Shown here piece by piece: positions 10,446 to 63,798 of a stretch of 64,000 bases of DNA. Where the stretch lies: assembly GCF_002019605.1 (NCBI RefSeq), contig NZ_KV917368.1:403809-467808 (forward strand), read 5' to 3'. How positions within the stretch are numbered: position 1 is the stretch's first letter; the number at the start of each line of letters is the position of its first letter. A program made the translations under genes and the position numbers. The stretch comes from Alkalihalobacterium alkalinitrilicum. GTDB taxonomy: Bacteria > Bacillota > Bacilli > Bacillales > Bacillaceae_F. The notes below the pieces were generated by a model. It worked only from the letters and a program-made list of their open reading frames with translations, was not told where the DNA came from and made no database searches.

Positions 10446-10844
10446 ATGAAGTTAGATAGTAATAACCATTCAGTATTCTTGATGTATTATCACCTTGTAT
10501 TAGTTGTGAAATATCGAAGAAAGGTCATTGATGATACTATTTCAAACTATGCAAGAGATAAATTCGTGTCGTTGAGTGAGAAATACAATATTACATTAGT
10601 CGAGTGGAACCATGATATTGACCATGTACATATTCTTTTCAAAGCACAACCTAATAGTGAATTGTCCAAATTTATCAACGCCTACAAAAGTGCAAGTTCA
10701 AGACTCATCAAGAAGGATTTTCCTCATGTTCGTAAAAAGTTGTGGAAAGAAATGTTTTGGTCAAGAAGCTTTTGTTTATTGACTACTGGTGGTTCGCTTA
10801 TTGAAGTGGTGAAAAAATATATTGAAAATCAAGGAATGAAGTGA
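10446..10844 (+). CDS. tnpA: IS200/IS605 transposase TnpA (Y1 HUH)
   Basis: The protein has 132 residues, the normal size. It has the His-hydrophobic-His motif DHVHILFKA (H60 and H62) that holds the metal, and a catalytic Tyr in VVKKYIENQG (Y125). The N-terminal strand YYHLVLVVKYRRKV is also typical. TnpA cuts and joins single-stranded DNA at the end hairpins. A promoter-like TTATAATC lies about 40 bases upstream. Both catalytic groups are present, so the enzyme looks intact. Confidence 0.92.
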   Translation: MKLDSNNHSVFLMYYHLVLVVKYRRKVIDDTISNYARDKFVSLSEKYNITLVEWNHDIDHVHILFKAQPNSELSKFINAYKSASSRLIKKDFPHVRKKLWKEMFWSRSFCLLTTGGSLIEVVKKYIENQGMK

Positions 10845-26395: not shown

Positions 26396-26650
26396 AATAA
26401 AAAAAAACCTTACTTTCCTAGAGGGACGACGAATCGTGGTACCACCCTCTTTTACTGTTGTCTTACGACTAACAGCCTTGGTAAGTAAAGGTTTACTTTG
26501 CATTGTAACGGTTTGCATACCGGTCCTTCTTACTTATATGTTCAGAAGGCATCTCTAAGGCGAGAAAGAAATGGATCTTCACCTGTTTTCACCAACCACA
26601 GGCTCTCTGAAAGAAGATTTACATTTCTGCTCCTTGTCATCGACATTTTA
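26396..26650 (-). promoter_or_regulatory. T-box leader, leucine specific (CUC specifier)
   Basis: On the minus strand the leader has the stem I landmarks (AGAGAGCC then GGTTGGTGAAAAC), the specifier region CTCGCCTTAGAG with codon CTC at 26564-26562, and the antiterminator core GGGTGGTACCACG. A terminator with T10 follows right before the leuA ribosome site. Uncharged leucine tRNA would allow readthrough. Confidence 0.93.
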
Positions 26651-56965: not shown

Positions 56966-57190
56966 ATAATTGGATTTAATATACTCACAAGATAGTAGGC
57001 ACTAGGAAATGTATGAACTGGAATTACAAGAAACATGTATAAATAAATCTAACGGAAATACAATAGGAAGAAGGAGATCGACATTTGTTGTCGATATTTT
57101 GCGAACGAAAAGTGTAGTACACTTTTATGAAGTATGGAATTATAGAATAGTACGAAAAATCTGCATTTAACTTTAGTGGAGGGACATAAA

Positions 57191-57397
57191 TTGCATAGTT
57201 TAATCAATAGTGAAGCTATTCTTAAAGTGTTCTTCGAAGGGTTTATACCTGTCATCATGATGATCTTAATTCCAATCCTTTTGTGGGTAGTGTTCCCTGG
57301 GTTAGTAGCACAACTCATTTTTAAAAAGAGAATTGCTTATAGTATTGGGGCGTTATTAGGTTTAATTGGATTTGGAATATTTAATTTTGTTCCATGA
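57191..57397 (+). CDS. small two-span membrane protein
   Basis: The TTG at 57191 has GTGGAGGG eight bases before it, giving 68 residues. Two hydrophobic segments, FIPVIMMILIPILLWVVFPG and IAYSIGALLGLIGFGIFNFV, are joined by a short basic loop (FKKRI). I recognise no family. It stands alone. Confidence 0.6.
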   Translation: MHSLINSEAILKVFFEGFIPVIMMILIPILLWVVFPGLVAQLIFKKRIAYSIGALLGLIGFGIFNFVP

Positions 57398-57725
57398 TAA
57401 CAAAGAATTACGGATAACGTAATACATAGGAATAGAAATTTGCGTTTCTACTAGTTTGTAGGAACGTTTTTTCTTGTCACAATGGAACCTCTTTAATAAA
57501 AAAATTCGAATAGTCTTATGCCCTATTACCATAATAAAATTGCAGAAATAGTCAATAAAATAGAAATCATCACAGTTAAAAGTAAATGTTTTTCCTTTTT
57601 TTGAATTGGAAATCATCTAAGTGTGAAAGGGTGTAAAAGAATATTTGTTTTTAAATTAAATTTGAGAAACTAAACAAGAGTAGTCGTAAGGAAATTGAGG
57701 TGATATTAGATGTTTGGGGAATTCA

Positions 57726-58043
57726 ATGCAATGTATTAGATATTTTGTTTCAATCAAATATTTTTATATTGGAAACGCCTGCATCGTGCCCAGGAGAGGA
57801 AGAAACTAGGAGAAAGTGGTGACGAAAGCGCCTGCATCGTGCCCGAGAGAGGAAGAAACTAGGAGGAAATTGTGATGGAAGCGCCTGCATCGTGCCCGAG
57901 AGAGGAAGAAACTAGGAGAAAGTAGTGACGGAAGTGCATGCATCGTATTAATCGGGACAATTTTTATTATTTTTTTATTTCGTACGAGTTGGGATTATAA
58001 GAAACGGATAAAACGTATCGAGGAGAAAATGGTTACATTATAA
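57726..58043 (+). pseudogene. small membrane-protein gene interrupted by a 53-bp tandem array
   Basis: In one frame, sequence before the array reads RYFVSIKYFYIGNACIV and sequence after it reads ACIVLIGTIFIIFLFRTSWD followed by YKKRIKRIEEKMVTL and a stop. The array is 159 bp (3 x 53), so it keeps the frame, but each unit carries a TAG in this frame. Without it, the product would be a one-span protein with a basic tail, as in many short Bacillus membrane proteins. A strong GAGGTGAT site (57698) precedes an ATG at 57710 in another frame that stops after nine codons, so the start is also damaged. Confidence 0.45.
57776..57946 (+). repeat. 53-bp tandem repeat, three copies plus a partial fourth
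   Basis: Units start at 57776, 57829, 57882 and 57935 (partial, 12 bases), each with CGCCTGCATCGTGCC then AGAGGAAGAAACTAGGAG. Differences between units are few. There are no variable spacers, so it is not a CRISPR array. Each unit contains an AGGAG-like site followed by a start codon that overlaps the stop of the previous micro-ORF (see findings). Confidence 0.85.
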
Positions 58044-58093
58044 AAATTTAGAAAAAAAACGATGAATAGCAATAGCTAATGGGAGGAAAAAAG

Positions 58094-59680
58094 ATGTCAT
58101 TACAACAATTTTTAAATGAGCAAAATGCAAAAGTGGACCAACTTTATAAAAACATCACAAAGGCGACCTGGATGGCACAAACGACAGGAGAAAAAGACTG
58201 GGCAGATAAAGTAGGGGAAGCACAGACGGAGTTTCGAACGTATTTTTCAAACCCCAACTTGTTTGAAAGTATTAAAACTTATTTGCAGGAAGATAAATTA
58301 ACTGCTCTTGAAAAGAGGCAACTCAAAAGTTTACAAAATACAGCTAGAGAAAATCAACTTCCTAAGGAAAGTCTGAAGGAGTTATCTCAACTATCTGCAG
58401 AGTTAAATCACATGTTTAATACGTACGAGCCAGAAGTGAATGGGGAGAAGTTATCGGCAAATGACATCCGCAGTATTTTAATGAATAGTTTAGACGAACA
58501 AGAACGTATGAACGCATGGAAAGCGTCAAAAGAAGTTGGTCAAGTGGTCGAAGAGAAGCTGTTATCCCTTGTTCATAAAAGAAATCATGCAGCAAAAGCT
58601 GTTGGCTATAATAACTTTCACGAAATGTCGTTTGAAAATCAAGAATTGGATCGCGATGAAATTTTTACAATCTTCGAAAACCTAATTGAATTATCTGATA
58701 CTACCTATCGTAAGTTAAAAAAAGAATTAGATCAGCAATTAGTTAAAAAGTTTGGGATCACGGAATTGGAATTAAGGCCATGGCATTATGTCGATCCTTT
58801 TTTCCAAGAGGCACCTGCAACAGAAGTAACTAATTTGGACAGATATTTTAAAAATGCAGATATCGAAAAATTAACAGCAGAAACATTTGCTGCAATGGAT
58901 ATTCCAATTGAAGATCTATATGCAAAAAGTGACTTAAATCCCCGTCCTGGAAAAAATCCAACAGCCTTTTGTATCGATATGGATCGTAGGGGAGACACCC
59001 GTGTTTTATGTAACAATCAACCAAATTCCTACTGGATGGGTACGATGTTGCATGAGTTCGGGCACGCGGCCTATTTTAAATACTTAGATTTGGAATTACC
59101 TGAACTTCTAAGAACACCTGCTCACATCTTAACAACAGAAGCGATCGCGATGCTGTTTGGTAAGATGACGGGCAACAAAGAATGGTTAGCAACCTTTGTA
59201 AAAATCGAGGAAGATGAGTTAGAAACATTGGCTCCAGCATTAGAAAAGTATGAACAATTAAAAATGCTCATTTCAGCAAGGTGGATTATTACGTTTGTAT
59301 TTTTTGAAAGAGAGCTATATGAAAATCCACAACAAGACTTAAACGCCTTATGGTGGAAGCTAGTCAAAGAAATTCAATTGATCAATCCGCCTGAAGGACG
59401 TAATCAACCAGATTGGGCTGCGAAAATCCACTTTACATTAGCACCTGTTTATTATCAAAATTATCTACTAGGTGAGCTGACTTCTGCCCAACTTCATCAG
59501 TATATAAAATCTAAGTTATCAGTACCGTTTTTCACAACAAAAGTAGGTCAATTTTTAAAAGAACAGTTTTTTCAACCAGGATCAAAATATCATTGGAATA
59601 AGAAAATTGAAAAAGTAACTGGAGAACCGCTTAACCCTCAGTTTTTTGTGGATGCTTACTGTAAAACGGAACAAAAGTAA
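58094..59680 (+). CDS. M2/M3-like zinc metallopeptidase
   Basis: The ATG at 58094 has GGGAGGAAAAAAG before it. The 528-residue product is almost all helical. The zinc site is MLHEFGHAAYFKY (HEFGH), with the third ligand in ILTTEAIAMLFGKM. The region GDTRVLCNNQPNSYWMGTML before it and APVYYQNYLLGELTSAQLH after it fit the peptidyl-dipeptidase A-like and M3 oligopeptidase fold with a deep channel. It has no signal peptide, so it acts in the cytosol on short peptides. Monocistronic. Confidence 0.88.
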   Translation: MSLQQFLNEQNAKVDQLYKNITKATWMAQTTGEKDWADKVGEAQTEFRTYFSNPNLFESIKTYLQEDKLTALEKRQLKSLQNTARENQLPKESLKELSQLSAELNHMFNTYEPEVNGEKLSANDIRSILMNSLDEQERMNAWKASKEVGQVVEEKLLSLVHKRNHAAKAVGYNNFHEMSFENQELDRDEIFTIFENLIELSDTTYRKLKKELDQQLVKKFGITELELRPWHYVDPFFQEAPATEVTNLDRYFKNADIEKLTAETFAAMDIPIEDLYAKSDLNPRPGKNPTAFCIDMDRRGDTRVLCNNQPNSYWMGTMLHEFGHAAYFKYLDLELPELLRTPAHILTTEAIAMLFGKMTGNKEWLATFVKIEEDELETLAPALEKYEQLKMLISARWIITFVFFERELYENPQQDLNALWWKLVKEIQLINPPEGRNQPDWAAKIHFTLAPVYYQNYLLGELTSAQLHQYIKSKLSVPFFTTKVGQFLKEQFFQPGSKYHWNKKIEKVTGEPLNPQFFVDAYCKTEQK

Positions 59681-59684
59681 TAAA

Positions 59685-59721
59685 CAAATCCAGGGAGAAA
59701 TAGTTGCTCACTGGATTTTTA
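59685..59721 (+). terminator. Rho-independent terminator
   Basis: AAATCCAG and CTGGATTT arms are followed by TTTATAATT, after the peptidase gene. Confidence 0.75.
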
Positions 59722-59825
59722 TAATTAGATCGCAAGAATGATGGATAATATGAGGATAAATGGATTAAATTAGATGGTATATTGGAAAAGGAATAGGGAT
59801 AAACACTAAATATTAGATTAACGAG

Positions 59826-60002
59826 TTACTTTGGATTGGAACTAACTTGGTGGTATTTGTTCAAACAATGATCAAGTTCTTGGCTATATTTAAGGGTTTC
59901 GGAATGGTTAAGCCCATTCAGTTTACCATTAGTATTCATCTGGTTTCGCAACCATTCAATTTTATTTTCTAATTTTATAATTTCCTCTATATTTATACTC
60001 AT
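59826..60002 (-). CDS. Spo0E-family aspartyl-phosphate phosphatase
   Basis: The protein has 58 residues, with GATAGGAGTTAAGTT before the ATG. It is a helical hairpin: EEIIKLENKIEWLRNQMNTN, then LNHSETLKYSQELDHCLNKY. SQELD is the catalytic motif of Spo0E-like phosphatases, which take the phosphate from Spo0A and delay sporulation. It is shorter than Spo0E itself and matches the YnzD/YisI size. It lies alone on the minus strand. Confidence 0.88.
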   Translation of the reverse strand: MSINIEEIIKLENKIEWLRNQMNTNGKLNGLNHSETLKYSQELDHCLNKYHQVSSNPK

Positions 60003-60484
60003 AACTTAACTCCTATCAAAATGTAAATAAAGTTCTGTTCTATAAAATGAATACATATGTAATATAATGTATTTTATATAAAAATGTTAAGTAATTCGAA
60101 AGATTTTCTATCAAAATTTCTTTTAGCATATGAAATTTGAACTGCAGTTTCAGACAAAGTCTATGATGATTATGAAATATGATGTTCATCAGTCACACAA
60201 ACATAAAGTGACAAGGAATTATTAAGTAACATTGTGCTATAATACAGCTTATACATAATAAGTGAGTCATATACTGTCAATTATTAAGATAAAAGTAAAG
60301 CGGGATACTATAGTGCAATCGAAAATCATCTGTTTATTTGAAATATAAAAGTCCGTTCTTCTATGCTAGAATAAAAGAAAGTATAGATATTCGTTCGACA
60401 GTTATTTACTAATACCTTTTCAGCAATGGATCAAACAAAAATTTAAGTTAAAATATCTGCCAATTTGGAGTGAACATATCCACT
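60003..60484. other. long leader or intergenic stretch with one promoter-like site
   Basis: An extended -10 box TGCTATAAT at 60235-60243 reads toward the MFS gene about 240 bases away. I see no small gene with a ribosome site between them. The stretch may be a long 5' leader or hold a small RNA. Confidence 0.35.
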
Positions 60485-61657
60485 ATGAATTTCAAAAAAG
60501 AACTTTCTATTTTATTTGCAACCATGTTTCTTGTTATGGTTGGCTTCGGTATCATTATTCCTGTTATGCCTTTTTACGCTGAAGAAATGGGAGCATCTCC
60601 TACTCAGTTAGGTTTACTCATGGCCACTTATTCCTTCATGCAGCTCATTTTTGCACCGATGTGGGGAAGAATTTCCGATCGTATCGGTCGAAAGCCTGTT
60701 ATTATCATTGGGATATTAGGATTAGCTATGTCATTTTTATTTATGGCACTTTCCACCCAGCTATGGATGCTGTTTGCGGCCCGAATTATCGGTGGGTTTC
60801 TGTCAGCTGCTAATATGCCAACTATAATGGCGTATGTAGCCGATATAACTTCAGAAGAAAATCGTGGCAAAGGGATGGGGATTATTGGAGCAGCGGTTGG
60901 ACTTGGATTCGTTTTTGGTCCTGCCATTGGAGGAGTGTTTTCACAATTCAGTTTGAGCATGCCGTTTTATGTAGCTACCATTGCCGCTTTCATTACAAGT
61001 TTACTCGTGTTTTTCCTATTAAAAGAGTCTCTTTCCCCTGAAAGTAGAGCTGAACGAGCTTCGAAGAAAACATCGTTACGTAACGAACTCAAAGGATCAA
61101 GATCAATTTTGTTTTACTTACAGTTGTTTGTTTCGTTATCATTAGCTGGACTTGAAGCAACATTTGCGTATTTTGCTGCGGAAAGAGCAGGGCTAGGACC
61201 TGTTCAATTAGGTTACATATTTATGATAATGGGGTTAGCAGGGGCAATTGTTCAAGGTGGACTCGTTGGAAGGTTAACAAAAAAATACGGTGAAGGTACT
61301 GTTATCCAAATTGGGATTACGGTTTCTGCAGTGGGCTTTGGGTTCATATTATTCATTGACAACTTTACTACAGCTGCCATATTTTTATCCATATTTGGAA
61401 TTGGAAATGGTCTGATTCGTCCAAGTGTATCTTCCCTTATTACAAAACAATCAGCAACTGGTTACGGAAGTTCAACAGGATTGCTATCTTCTTTTGACTC
61501 CCTAGGTAGAATTTTAGGCCCGCCATTAGGTGGTTTCCTCTTTACGTTTGCAATAGGACTGCCTTATATTTCGGGAATTTTCTTATCTGTTGTCGCATTT
61601 ATCTTATATCGATTTTATGTTGTACAATCGAAACGTGCTGTTGACGAACAATCATAA
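60485..61657 (+). CDS. MFS multidrug-type exporter (NorA/Bmr/TetA group)
   Basis: The ATG at 60485 is taken, with GGAGTG 14 bases before; a GTG at 60470 overlaps that site. The product has about 390 residues and 12 spans: GFGIIIPVMPFYAEEMGASP (TM1), motif A GRISDRIGRKPVII, motif C GLGFVFGPAIGG and a second half with YGSSTGLLSSFDSLGRILGPPLGG (split by a short gap from RPSVSSLITKQ). Motif C marks it as an H+-coupled drug exporter. A strong terminator follows, and the group II intron is placed directly behind it. Confidence 0.88.
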   Translation: MNFKKELSILFATMFLVMVGFGIIIPVMPFYAEEMGASPTQLGLLMATYSFMQLIFAPMWGRISDRIGRKPVIIIGILGLAMSFLFMALSTQLWMLFAARIIGGFLSAANMPTIMAYVADITSEENRGKGMGIIGAAVGLGFVFGPAIGGVFSQFSLSMPFYVATIAAFITSLLVFFLLKESLSPESRAERASKKTSLRNELKGSRSILFYLQLFVSLSLAGLEATFAYFAAERAGLGPVQLGYIFMIMGLAGAIVQGGLVGRLTKKYGEGTVIQIGITVSAVGFGFILFIDNFTTAAIFLSIFGIGNGLIRPSVSSLITKQSATGYGSSTGLLSSFDSLGRILGPPLGGFLFTFAIGLPYISGIFLSVVAFILYRFYVVQSKRAVDEQS

Positions 61658-61736
61658 AATCTAAAGAACCTTAGATCATTCTGATGACGAACCCCAGTAA
61701 TTCATGAAAGTATGTTTTCTTCTATAACTTAAAGAT

Positions 61737-61776
61737 GAAAGAGTTGAAGTCAATAAATGACTTTCAGCTCTTTTTC
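61737..61776 (+). terminator. Rho-independent terminator, target of the intron
   Basis: AAAGAGTTGAAGTCA and TGACTTTCAGCTCTTT arms (one bulge) are followed by TTTTTCTT. The group II intron starts just after this T tract. Confidence 0.8.
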
Positions 61777-61778
61777 TT

Positions 61779-63634
61779 GTGTGCCAGGCATGGCAACTAT
61801 CTAGGTGGTGAAAGTCCACTGTGGGGGTACACATCGACCAACCACTAAGGAAGCGCAAGGTACTTATCGTGAGGTAAGGGCTAGAGGAAGCGTGGAATAA
61901 AATCTTGGCTCGACGAACAGAAATCTGATACCAAGGCTTTATAAAGGGATGAGGCTCCATGACAAGTCAAAGTCCAAAAGATGTGCGTAACTTTATAGAG
62001 TAAATCAGGCGAGTAAAAGAGGAAAGATAGTTGTCTTACCCTGGGAGATCTTGCGAATGTACATATGTACATTCGAAAAAGGTTAACCGCAAGAAGTCAG
62101 CAGAAGCCATAGTAATGAGTAATCTCATGAAGGGCTGAACAATTTATAGTGTTTCAACGCCACGAATGTGTAAGTGACGAACTCCGAATGTGTTAATGGT
62201 GAAAGAATGAGCGTATCTCAAAGGATAGCCAAAATGGAGCTATCACTTACTACGTGAGAGGAGAGGAGAAACGAGTGTGAAGCTTTTAGAGCAGATTTTA
62301 AGTAATCAAAACATGAACGAAGCTTACCTGCGTGTTTATAGAAATAAGGGTGCAAGTGGGGTCGACGGAGTAACAGTCGACGAACTAAAACAATATCTGA
62401 AAGAGAACAAGGATGAACTGCGCCAGCGCATCAGAACAAGAAAATACCAACCACAAGCTGCCTTAAGAGTGGAGATCCCAAAAGAAAATGGAAAGATGCG
62501 CAAATTGGGAATACCAACAGTAGTGGATAGGGTAGTTCAACAAGCAATTCACCAAGTACTTAGTCCGATATTCGAAAAGCAGTTCAGTGAATTCAGTTAC
62601 GGCTTTAGACCAAAAAGAAGTTGTGAGATGGCAATTATAAAAAGCTTGGAATATCTGAATGATGGACACGATTGGATAGTGGACATTGACCTTGAAAGAT
62701 TCTTCGATACAGTCCACCACGATAAACTCATGCGAATTATTGCCAACACAATAGATGATGGAGACGTTATCTCTCTAATAAGAAAATATCTTGTTAGTGG
62801 GGTCATGGTGAATGGGAAATATGAAGAAACACCAACCGGGACTCCGCAAGGAGGTAACCTCAGTCCATTATTGAGTAATATTATGTTGAATGAACTCGAT
62901 AAGGAATTAGAAAGTAGAGGATTACGATTCATAAGATACGCTGATGACGCACTCATCTTTGTGAAAAGCGAAAAAGCCGCTGACAGAGTGATGAAATCAA
63001 TCGTGAGATTTATAGAAGAGAAATTAGGATTGATAGTAAATGCCGAAAAGAGTAAAGTTTCTCGCCCAAAAGAGTTAAAATTCTTGGGATTTGGGTATTA
63101 TTATGATCCTAATAACAAGAGATATCAAGTGCGGCCTCATCCAATTTCAGTACAGAAATTTCAAAGGAAGCTTCGACAATTGACAAAGCGAAATTGGAGT
63201 GTTCCGTTAGACTACCGAATACTGAAACTGAAACAAGTCATATTCGGATGGGTGAATTACTTTAGAATCGCAAATATGAAAACAGCAATGAGTCGAATAG
63301 ATAAGAAATTACGCTCAAGATTAAGGGTAATCATCTGGAAACAATGGAAGGTAGCGAAAAAACAAATCAAGTCGCTAACTCAATTAGGGATACCTGAAGA
63401 AGAAGCGAAAGGATTAACGTTCTGCCGGAAAGGTTATCGGTATATCGGATTATCGAAAGTTGTTCAAAAAGCAATCTCAAACAAAAGACTAAAACAAAGG
63501 GGAGTACCCTCTGCTTTAGAACGTTACTTAAAAGTACACACTGTAATATAAATTGAAACGCCGTATACGAGACCCGTATGTACGGTGTTGTGAGAGGGGC
63601 GAAAATAGGTTAACTTATTTTCCCTCTACTCGAT
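61779..63634 (+). mobile_element. group II intron, class C, with reverse transcriptase
   Basis: The element starts GTGTGCCAGG, the usual 5' end, and carries structured RNA before the reverse transcriptase gene. After the gene, CCGTATACGAGACCCGTATGTACGG with its short loop is domain V; the following GAGAGGGGCGAAAATAG stem is domain VI, ending CTACTCGAT. Length is about 1.86 kb. The site directly downstream of a terminator hairpin is the known choice of class C introns. The 3' end may differ by a base or two. Confidence 0.88.
62277..63551 (+). CDS. ltrA: group II intron reverse transcriptase/maturase
   Basis: The protein has 424 residues, a usual size for class C. The GTG has GAGAGGAGAGGAG before it. 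Reverse transcriptase blocks: YRNKGASGVDGVTVDELKQY, RKLGIPTVVDRVVQQAIHQV, FSYGFRPKRSCEMAI, TGTPQGGNLSPLLSNIMLNE and the active site FIRYADDALIFVK. Domain X follows (about 290-400, LKLKQVIFGWVNYFRIANMK). No endonuclease domain is present, as expected for class C. The YADD site is intact, so the intron may be active. Confidence 0.93.
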   Translation: MKLLEQILSNQNMNEAYLRVYRNKGASGVDGVTVDELKQYLKENKDELRQRIRTRKYQPQAALRVEIPKENGKMRKLGIPTVVDRVVQQAIHQVLSPIFEKQFSEFSYGFRPKRSCEMAIIKSLEYLNDGHDWIVDIDLERFFDTVHHDKLMRIIANTIDDGDVISLIRKYLVSGVMVNGKYEETPTGTPQGGNLSPLLSNIMLNELDKELESRGLRFIRYADDALIFVKSEKAADRVMKSIVRFIEEKLGLIVNAEKSKVSRPKELKFLGFGYYYDPNNKRYQVRPHPISVQKFQRKLRQLTKRNWSVPLDYRILKLKQVIFGWVNYFRIANMKTAMSRIDKKLRSRLRVIIWKQWKVAKKQIKSLTQLGIPEEEAKGLTFCRKGYRYIGLSKVVQKAISNKRLKQRGVPSALERYLKVHTVI

Positions 63635-63798
63635 TTGCGGCTAAGCCATAGGGTGCCCTTTAGAACTCGATATGTTACCCTCATCAATGTAGGAATATTT
63701 TTTGTAAAAGCTTGTAAATTTCTATAAAACTAGACGTTTAACTAATAGAGGCATATAAGTTTGATAAAATAAGACCAACTAAGTTATAAGGAGAATTA

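Follow-up and report, generated by a model that had tools for sequence, protein, structure and literature searches.

Does a chain of overlapping micro-open reading frames (micro-ORFs) in the genome of Alkalihalobacterium alkalinitrilicum encode a set of coupled peptides, or is it a by-product of the DNA repeat in which it lies? The chain is found in a 64,000-nt stretch of contig NZ_KV917368.1 (positions 403,809 to 467,808 of the forward strand; hereafter the window, whose numbering is used below). Tandem Repeats Finder (TRF), run over the whole window, reported an array of period 53 at 57772–57946 (3.3 copies, 88% matches) with a score of 266, the runner-up among the 13 rows scoring 68, so the array does stand out as a tandem repeat, as the original prediction from the sequence had held. 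We conclude that it represents a dispersed repeat of an ordinary sort that lies in a pseudogene, akin to other clade-limited interspersed tandem repeats. The fuller account, in which a dispersed repeat was copied in and amplified, the host gene is now a pseudogene and the micro-ORFs are incidental, is in our view very likely to be correct.

A dispersed repeat family and a broken host gene

A unit model based on sequence only and built from 31 units matched the window genome 27 times, in seven loci, at E ≤ 0.01. Among 397 genomes of the order, covering 135 genera, four had a match at E ≤ 1e-4, all of them in the window's genus, with at least 15, at least 15, at least 31 and at least 1 matches. 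A scan of GTDB contigs, which may omit records close to the window's genome, revealed 15 stretches with two cores exactly 53 bp apart, all from Alkalihalobacterium chitinilyticum or A. elongatum; the genus name used here for the family follows the naming of the records for two sister species. The same two-core pattern had no match in viral contigs, and window positions 57700–58043 had none among plasmids or phages.

We compared the units of the window genome (G000) with those of two sister species (G001 and G002); a further member of the genus is labeled G003. After duplicate removal, the working set held 173 units (23 from G000, 14 from G001 and 136 from G002), a sample from which the fixed score cut-off omits weaker units, for example in L131 and L128. 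The sampled arrays numbered 28 in the three species (7, 5 and 16, respectively), and G002 has further places, such as C3:152178, outside this set. The spacing was 53 in 134 of 144 close unit spacings, and the least variable part of the unit was a core of about AGAGGRAAAAAYTAGGAG. AGGAG is part of this core and is found also in units without a coupled ORF; the AGGAGA or AGGAGG read as a ribosome site before the starts is the repeat core. By simple ORF calling, 21 of the 28 arrays overlapped no ORF of at least 70 codons, and the other seven overlapped ORFs of 93–153 codons, which run antisense to the array in six cases and share its strand in one (L130), all of these being bare ORF calls without family matching. 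The upstream neighbor lay on the array's strand in 19 of the 28, or in 20 if the gene at 57176–57397 is used for the window in place of an opposite-strand ORF that we took as spurious; this uncorrected count is weak and was not used. Allowing the core pattern up to three mismatches was rejected as a way to count loci, since it gave 18 own-genome matches versus 20 for the reversed control. Leads from the core pattern were limited to 0–2 mismatches (one of them, L010, falls in coding sequence as judged by look), and the locus count was taken from the unit model.

Together, these results show that the array, far from being singular, belongs to a family of 53-bp tandem repeats that are dispersed, lie mostly between genes and have so far been seen in Alkalihalobacterium only. 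An incomplete literature search yielded no account of this family, and the main text of PMC8543038 contains no word starting with "repeat" or "intergenic."

The array lies in what had been described as a broken small gene, and an intact homolog in G002 bore this out. Homologous halves flank the array on both sides: positions 57697–57764 align with the 5′ part of the intact G002 gene at 75% identity (69 columns), and positions 57945–58058 with its 3′ part at 65% identity (119 columns). In G002, this intact gene has 62 codons, a product predicted to be membrane-protein-like and a position upstream of the corresponding peptidase gene; the peptidase gene downstream of the broken gene has Pfam M2, M3 and M32 matches. 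The frame that opens at the ATG (57711) is closed by a stop upstream of the array, and the protein match to the intact gene's product in the 3′ part holds an internal TAA. Because the two halves are out of frame with each other and a stop lies ahead of the array, the gene has been broken more than once. The host gene is now a pseudogene. The proposal that the 159 bp of three units preserve the reading frame of the flanking gene is sound as arithmetic only: whether or not the 159 bp are counted, the homologous halves do not share a frame, and the frame from the gene's ATG does not reach the array.

No unit was detected at the intact-gene locus of G002 at E ≤ 1. In G001, the transporter and the peptidase are separated by other ORFs, that 7-kb locus contains no unit, and the only match to the 62-codon protein is weak (34%, E 0.0015) and lies elsewhere. 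In G003, the small gene at 57176–57397 has a relative, in whose locus no unit was found; this genome gave no match to the 62-codon protein and only a distant peptidase match elsewhere. More distant matches to the 62-codon protein were found in G002 itself, G004 and G007. The window position was thus compared with sister species, the host species being represented by one strain.

In a DNA search, the nearest second place in the window genome was C1:4586525 (94% identity over 65 bases), where a single unit lies downstream of a thiol-peroxidase-like gene that we take from its sequence to be tpx. The window array had a mean identity of 0.931 to this tpx unit and of at most 0.698 to every other sampled array. 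The tpx position is occupied in G001 too, by three units with flanks 71–87% alike. Since the tpx position is occupied in G001 and the window position is empty in G002, the former is probably the older and the latter the younger. We suggest that the small membrane-protein gene upstream of the M2/M3-type peptidase gene acquired, in the lineage of the window genome, one unit or a short array whose most likely source lay downstream of tpx. This insert would then have grown to 3.3 copies, slippage or unequal exchange being the probable mechanism. The earlier idea, that a gene was broken by a duplication which by chance also copied a ribosome site and a start, came near to this, except that the repeat is not derived from the gene and belongs to a dispersed family. 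The locus would thus illustrate, within a single genus, how a repeat spreads, breaks a gene and possibly becomes homogenized, a repeat-free site being present in a sister species. As a separate observation, the tpx unit (L133:2500-2600, near G000:C1 4586525) is preceded by an inverted part-copy of itself, GGGCACGATGCA ... TGCATCGTGCCC, a possible hairpin at the unit start.

Start-stop coupling in the window and in the family

Frame reading confirmed all four micro-ORFs with their overlaps, and the period of 53 does fall one below a multiple of three. AGGAGA or AGGAGG, which had been described before every start, precedes three of the four; directly 5′ of the first start (57769) is TTCAATCAAATATTTTTATA, which has no likeness to a ribosome site. 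We scored two adjacent units as coupled when a start 4–12 nt after AGGAG opened an ORF ending −1 to +4 nt from the next such start. By this measure, 2 of 142 adjacent pairs were coupled, both in the window array; none of the 140 pairs outside the window, in the sampled arrays of three species, was coupled. The overlaps are therefore lost in relatives, an outcome that the original prediction had named as refuting it, at the level of the repeat family, which is what this check covered, as none of the compared relatives carries the insertion at the window position.

When each unit was set in tandem with itself, 8 of the 173 were coupled: the three window units, the tpx unit, two units of G001 (one of which ends the tpx array) and two of G002. 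Random units sampled column by column were coupled in 1771 of 20000 cases (8.9%) for the pool of G000 and G001, which contains the window units, in 552 of 20000 for G002 and in 817 of 20000 for all units pooled. On these figures, chance suffices for the coupling seen in the window. The window copies probably count as one event and not three because the tpx-type unit already has this property. In that unit, GTG-TGA happens to follow the AGGAG core, and a period one base below a multiple of three means that tandem copying yields the −4 and −1 overlaps automatically. Nine distinct changes separate the tpx unit and the three window units, three silent and six non-silent (one a stop), and 17 of the 54 possible transitions in that frame would be silent; the ratio is about as expected without constraint, small as the numbers are.

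Several observations weigh against this explanation. A start 4–12 nt after AGGAG is present in 120 of the 136 G002 units, where it mostly opens 14 codons; these ORFs end in the core's TAG, about 8 nt before the next start as positioned on the consensus, and their variability by codon position (0.158, 0.166 and 0.193) gives no clear coding signal. The overlap has been retained in all three window units despite the nine distinct changes, which include those to the tpx unit. This is weak counter-evidence because the window units have one common founder. In addition, the tpx position, from which we infer that the array was copied, now holds a single unit.

The micro-ORF chain thus looks like a by-product of the repeat, probably untranslated, and not like a peptide system. 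A dispersed tandem repeat can mimic a translationally coupled peptide operon because a purine-rich, ribosome-site-like core and a period that misses a multiple of three by one base are enough to produce the resemblance.

Shared array positions and alternative explanations

Three array positions are each common to two species, with differing unit numbers: 4 units in G001 and 11 in G002 beside fabI (L135/L108), 1 in G000 and 3 in G001 beside tpx (L133/L134), and 2 in G001 and 12 in G002 beside a LysM-like gene (L028/L099). The counts are between species and by the fixed score cut-off, and the gene names are presumptive, being assigned from sequence. At two of the three positions, the arrays were closer to other arrays of their own genome than to their counterpart: identity to the counterpart was 0.621 versus 0.647 and 0.770 at fabI, and 0.576 versus 0.627 and 0.760 at the LysM-like gene. 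The own-genome excess was absent at tpx (0.698 versus 0.665 in G001 and 0.697 in G000). At columns 20–22 and 48–51, the letters were in most cases CCC with RGG or GGT for G000 and G001, and AGC with CGTG for G002. Mean identity was 0.774 inside an array, 0.719 across the arrays of one genome and 0.612 across genomes. This pattern resembles within-species homogenization, although recent amplification in G002 could produce the same identities.

These data bear on the possibility that the repeats are selected DNA or RNA sites for a putative cellular factor, with the window copy being one such site or a stray. The prevailing 53-bp period, the constant core, the three shared positions and the species-specific letters would fit such sites; array and unit numbers vary widely among species, a member of the genus yielded just one match, a partial one, tandem copying alone explains the constant period, and no structure was found. 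We therefore regard this possibility as unlikely. A bolder form, that the arrays are genus-specific, actively homogenized sites for a putative sequence-specific factor and the window array a recent stray copy, seems to us a little less probable again; if it were true, the species-wide letter differences would follow a changing partner factor, and the window array would illustrate how such sites spread.

A structured RNA was considered and rejected. The + strand of the array folds worse than 197 of 200 shuffles (z +2.12), the − strand folds like its shuffles (z 0.28, 112/200), and the RNAalifold consensus over 150 units has 0 pairs. A stem guessed by eye between columns 18–23 and 48–53 showed covariation of 0.144 versus 0.076 in shuffles (0/500), also above that of its slid versions. 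The signal rests mainly on the species-differing pair 21–50 (GU 113, CG 19), pair 20–51 is unpaired in 112 of 136 rows, and we make no claim for this stem.

The family was also set beside known repeats. According to PMC12548453, mycobacterial interspersed repetitive units (MIRUs) are dispersed repeats of short length in which a small ORF with an overlapping start and stop may be present, and the 53-bp units are like them in this description. The window array might accordingly be a MIRU-like mobile repeat, whose internal ORF permits insertion near start codons and hands ribosomes on to the following gene at little cost. However, the array lies inside the body of a gene, which it breaks, the last micro-ORF stops at 57951 within that gene and overlaps no gene's start, and the other sampled arrays lack coupling, so we consider a MIRU-like role improbable.

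REP and REPIN elements, according to PMC3116915, are short, extragenic, dispersed, clade-specific and palindromic repeats that sometimes form tandem arrays. The 53-bp units share all of these features except the palindrome, having no consensus fold. REPs adjoin RAYT genes; no 53-bp unit was found in the loci of 12 of the 20 Y1-transposase matches, the 12 that were covered. Y1 (IS200/IS605-type) transposase matches, fragments included, number 13 in G000 versus 1 to 3 in the other three genus members; one is at window 10470–10832 (+), that is, C1:414278-414640. The cyanobacterial LTRR and the Bacillus cereus bcr repeats are clade-limited intergenic tandem repeats of variable copy number, as is the present family; their sequences and periods presumably differ. 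The family also has the properties of variable-number tandem repeats, with several places per genome, intergenic siting and unit numbers that vary at shared positions (4/11, 1/3 and 2/12).

A working chain of start-stop-coupled micro-ORFs, yielding related short peptides or a translated leader, is suggested by the ribosome-site-like motif before three of the four starts and by successive micro-ORFs overlapping the preceding stop by 1–4 nt. We hold it to be very improbable: coupling is absent elsewhere in the family, chance accounts for it in the window, and the changes, six of nine non-silent, ignore the frame. Moreover, frame reading found no start codon linking the last micro-ORF to the gene's 3′ half in its frame, the + strand is less folded than nearly all of its shuffles, and a weak scan of 57100–58200 found no promoter-like site on the + strand; the two promoter-like sites that it did find were both on the − strand and fewer than in shuffles. 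That the repeat was born on the spot from the gene's own DNA, as its place in a gene whose flanks match an array-free relative might suggest, is refuted beyond reasonable doubt by the unit's presence at six other places in the same genome and its absence from the intact relative's locus.

Further features of the window

The features at and around the array are collected in Table 1.

Table 1. Positions of the repeat units, the micro-ORFs and the parts of the broken gene in the window
Feature	Position	Strand	Remarks
Terminator-like hairpin upstream of broken gene	57442..57467	+	Consensus scan only; 1 found versus 0.5 in shuffles
5′ part of broken small membrane-protein gene	57697..57764	+	Ribosome-site-like GAGGTGAT; ATG at 57711
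Micro-ORF 1	57769..57822	+	TTG start, no ribosome site upstream; judged incidental
Repeat unit 1	57770..57822	+	53 bp; profile scan, TRF, model R1 47.7 bits
Micro-ORF 2	57819..57875	+	GTG start; judged incidental
Repeat unit 2	57823..57875	+	53 bp; profile scan, TRF, model R1 46.1 bits
Micro-ORF 3	57875..57925	+	ATG start; judged incidental
Repeat unit 3	57876..57928	+	53 bp; profile scan, TRF, model R1 47.3 bits
Micro-ORF 4	57925..57951	+	GTG start, 8 codons; judged incidental
Partial fourth unit	57929..57946	+	TRF array end at 57946
3′ part of broken gene	57945..58043	+	Different frame from 5′ part; ends at TAA 58041–58043

Rfam gave four matches in the window, none of them at the array; one was a T-box leader at 26419–26649 (−) with 110.7 bits. 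Window positions 58208–63635 have a 5.4-kb second copy, 100% identical, at G000:C1:3352100-3357526 (−), which is either a recent duplication or an assembly artifact. The second copy starts inside the peptidase gene, where the sequence passes into an rRNA operon (5S and 23S rRNA), so that one peptidase copy is cut; between those rRNAs lie a Bacillaceae-1 RNA and a further group II intron domain. Rfam domains also placed a group II intron at window 61764–63636. Besides the 5.4-kb duplicate, this intron has five more near-full-length places in the genome at 97–100% identity, along with several shorter or more distant matches, and one boundary of the duplicate coincides with an end of the intron.
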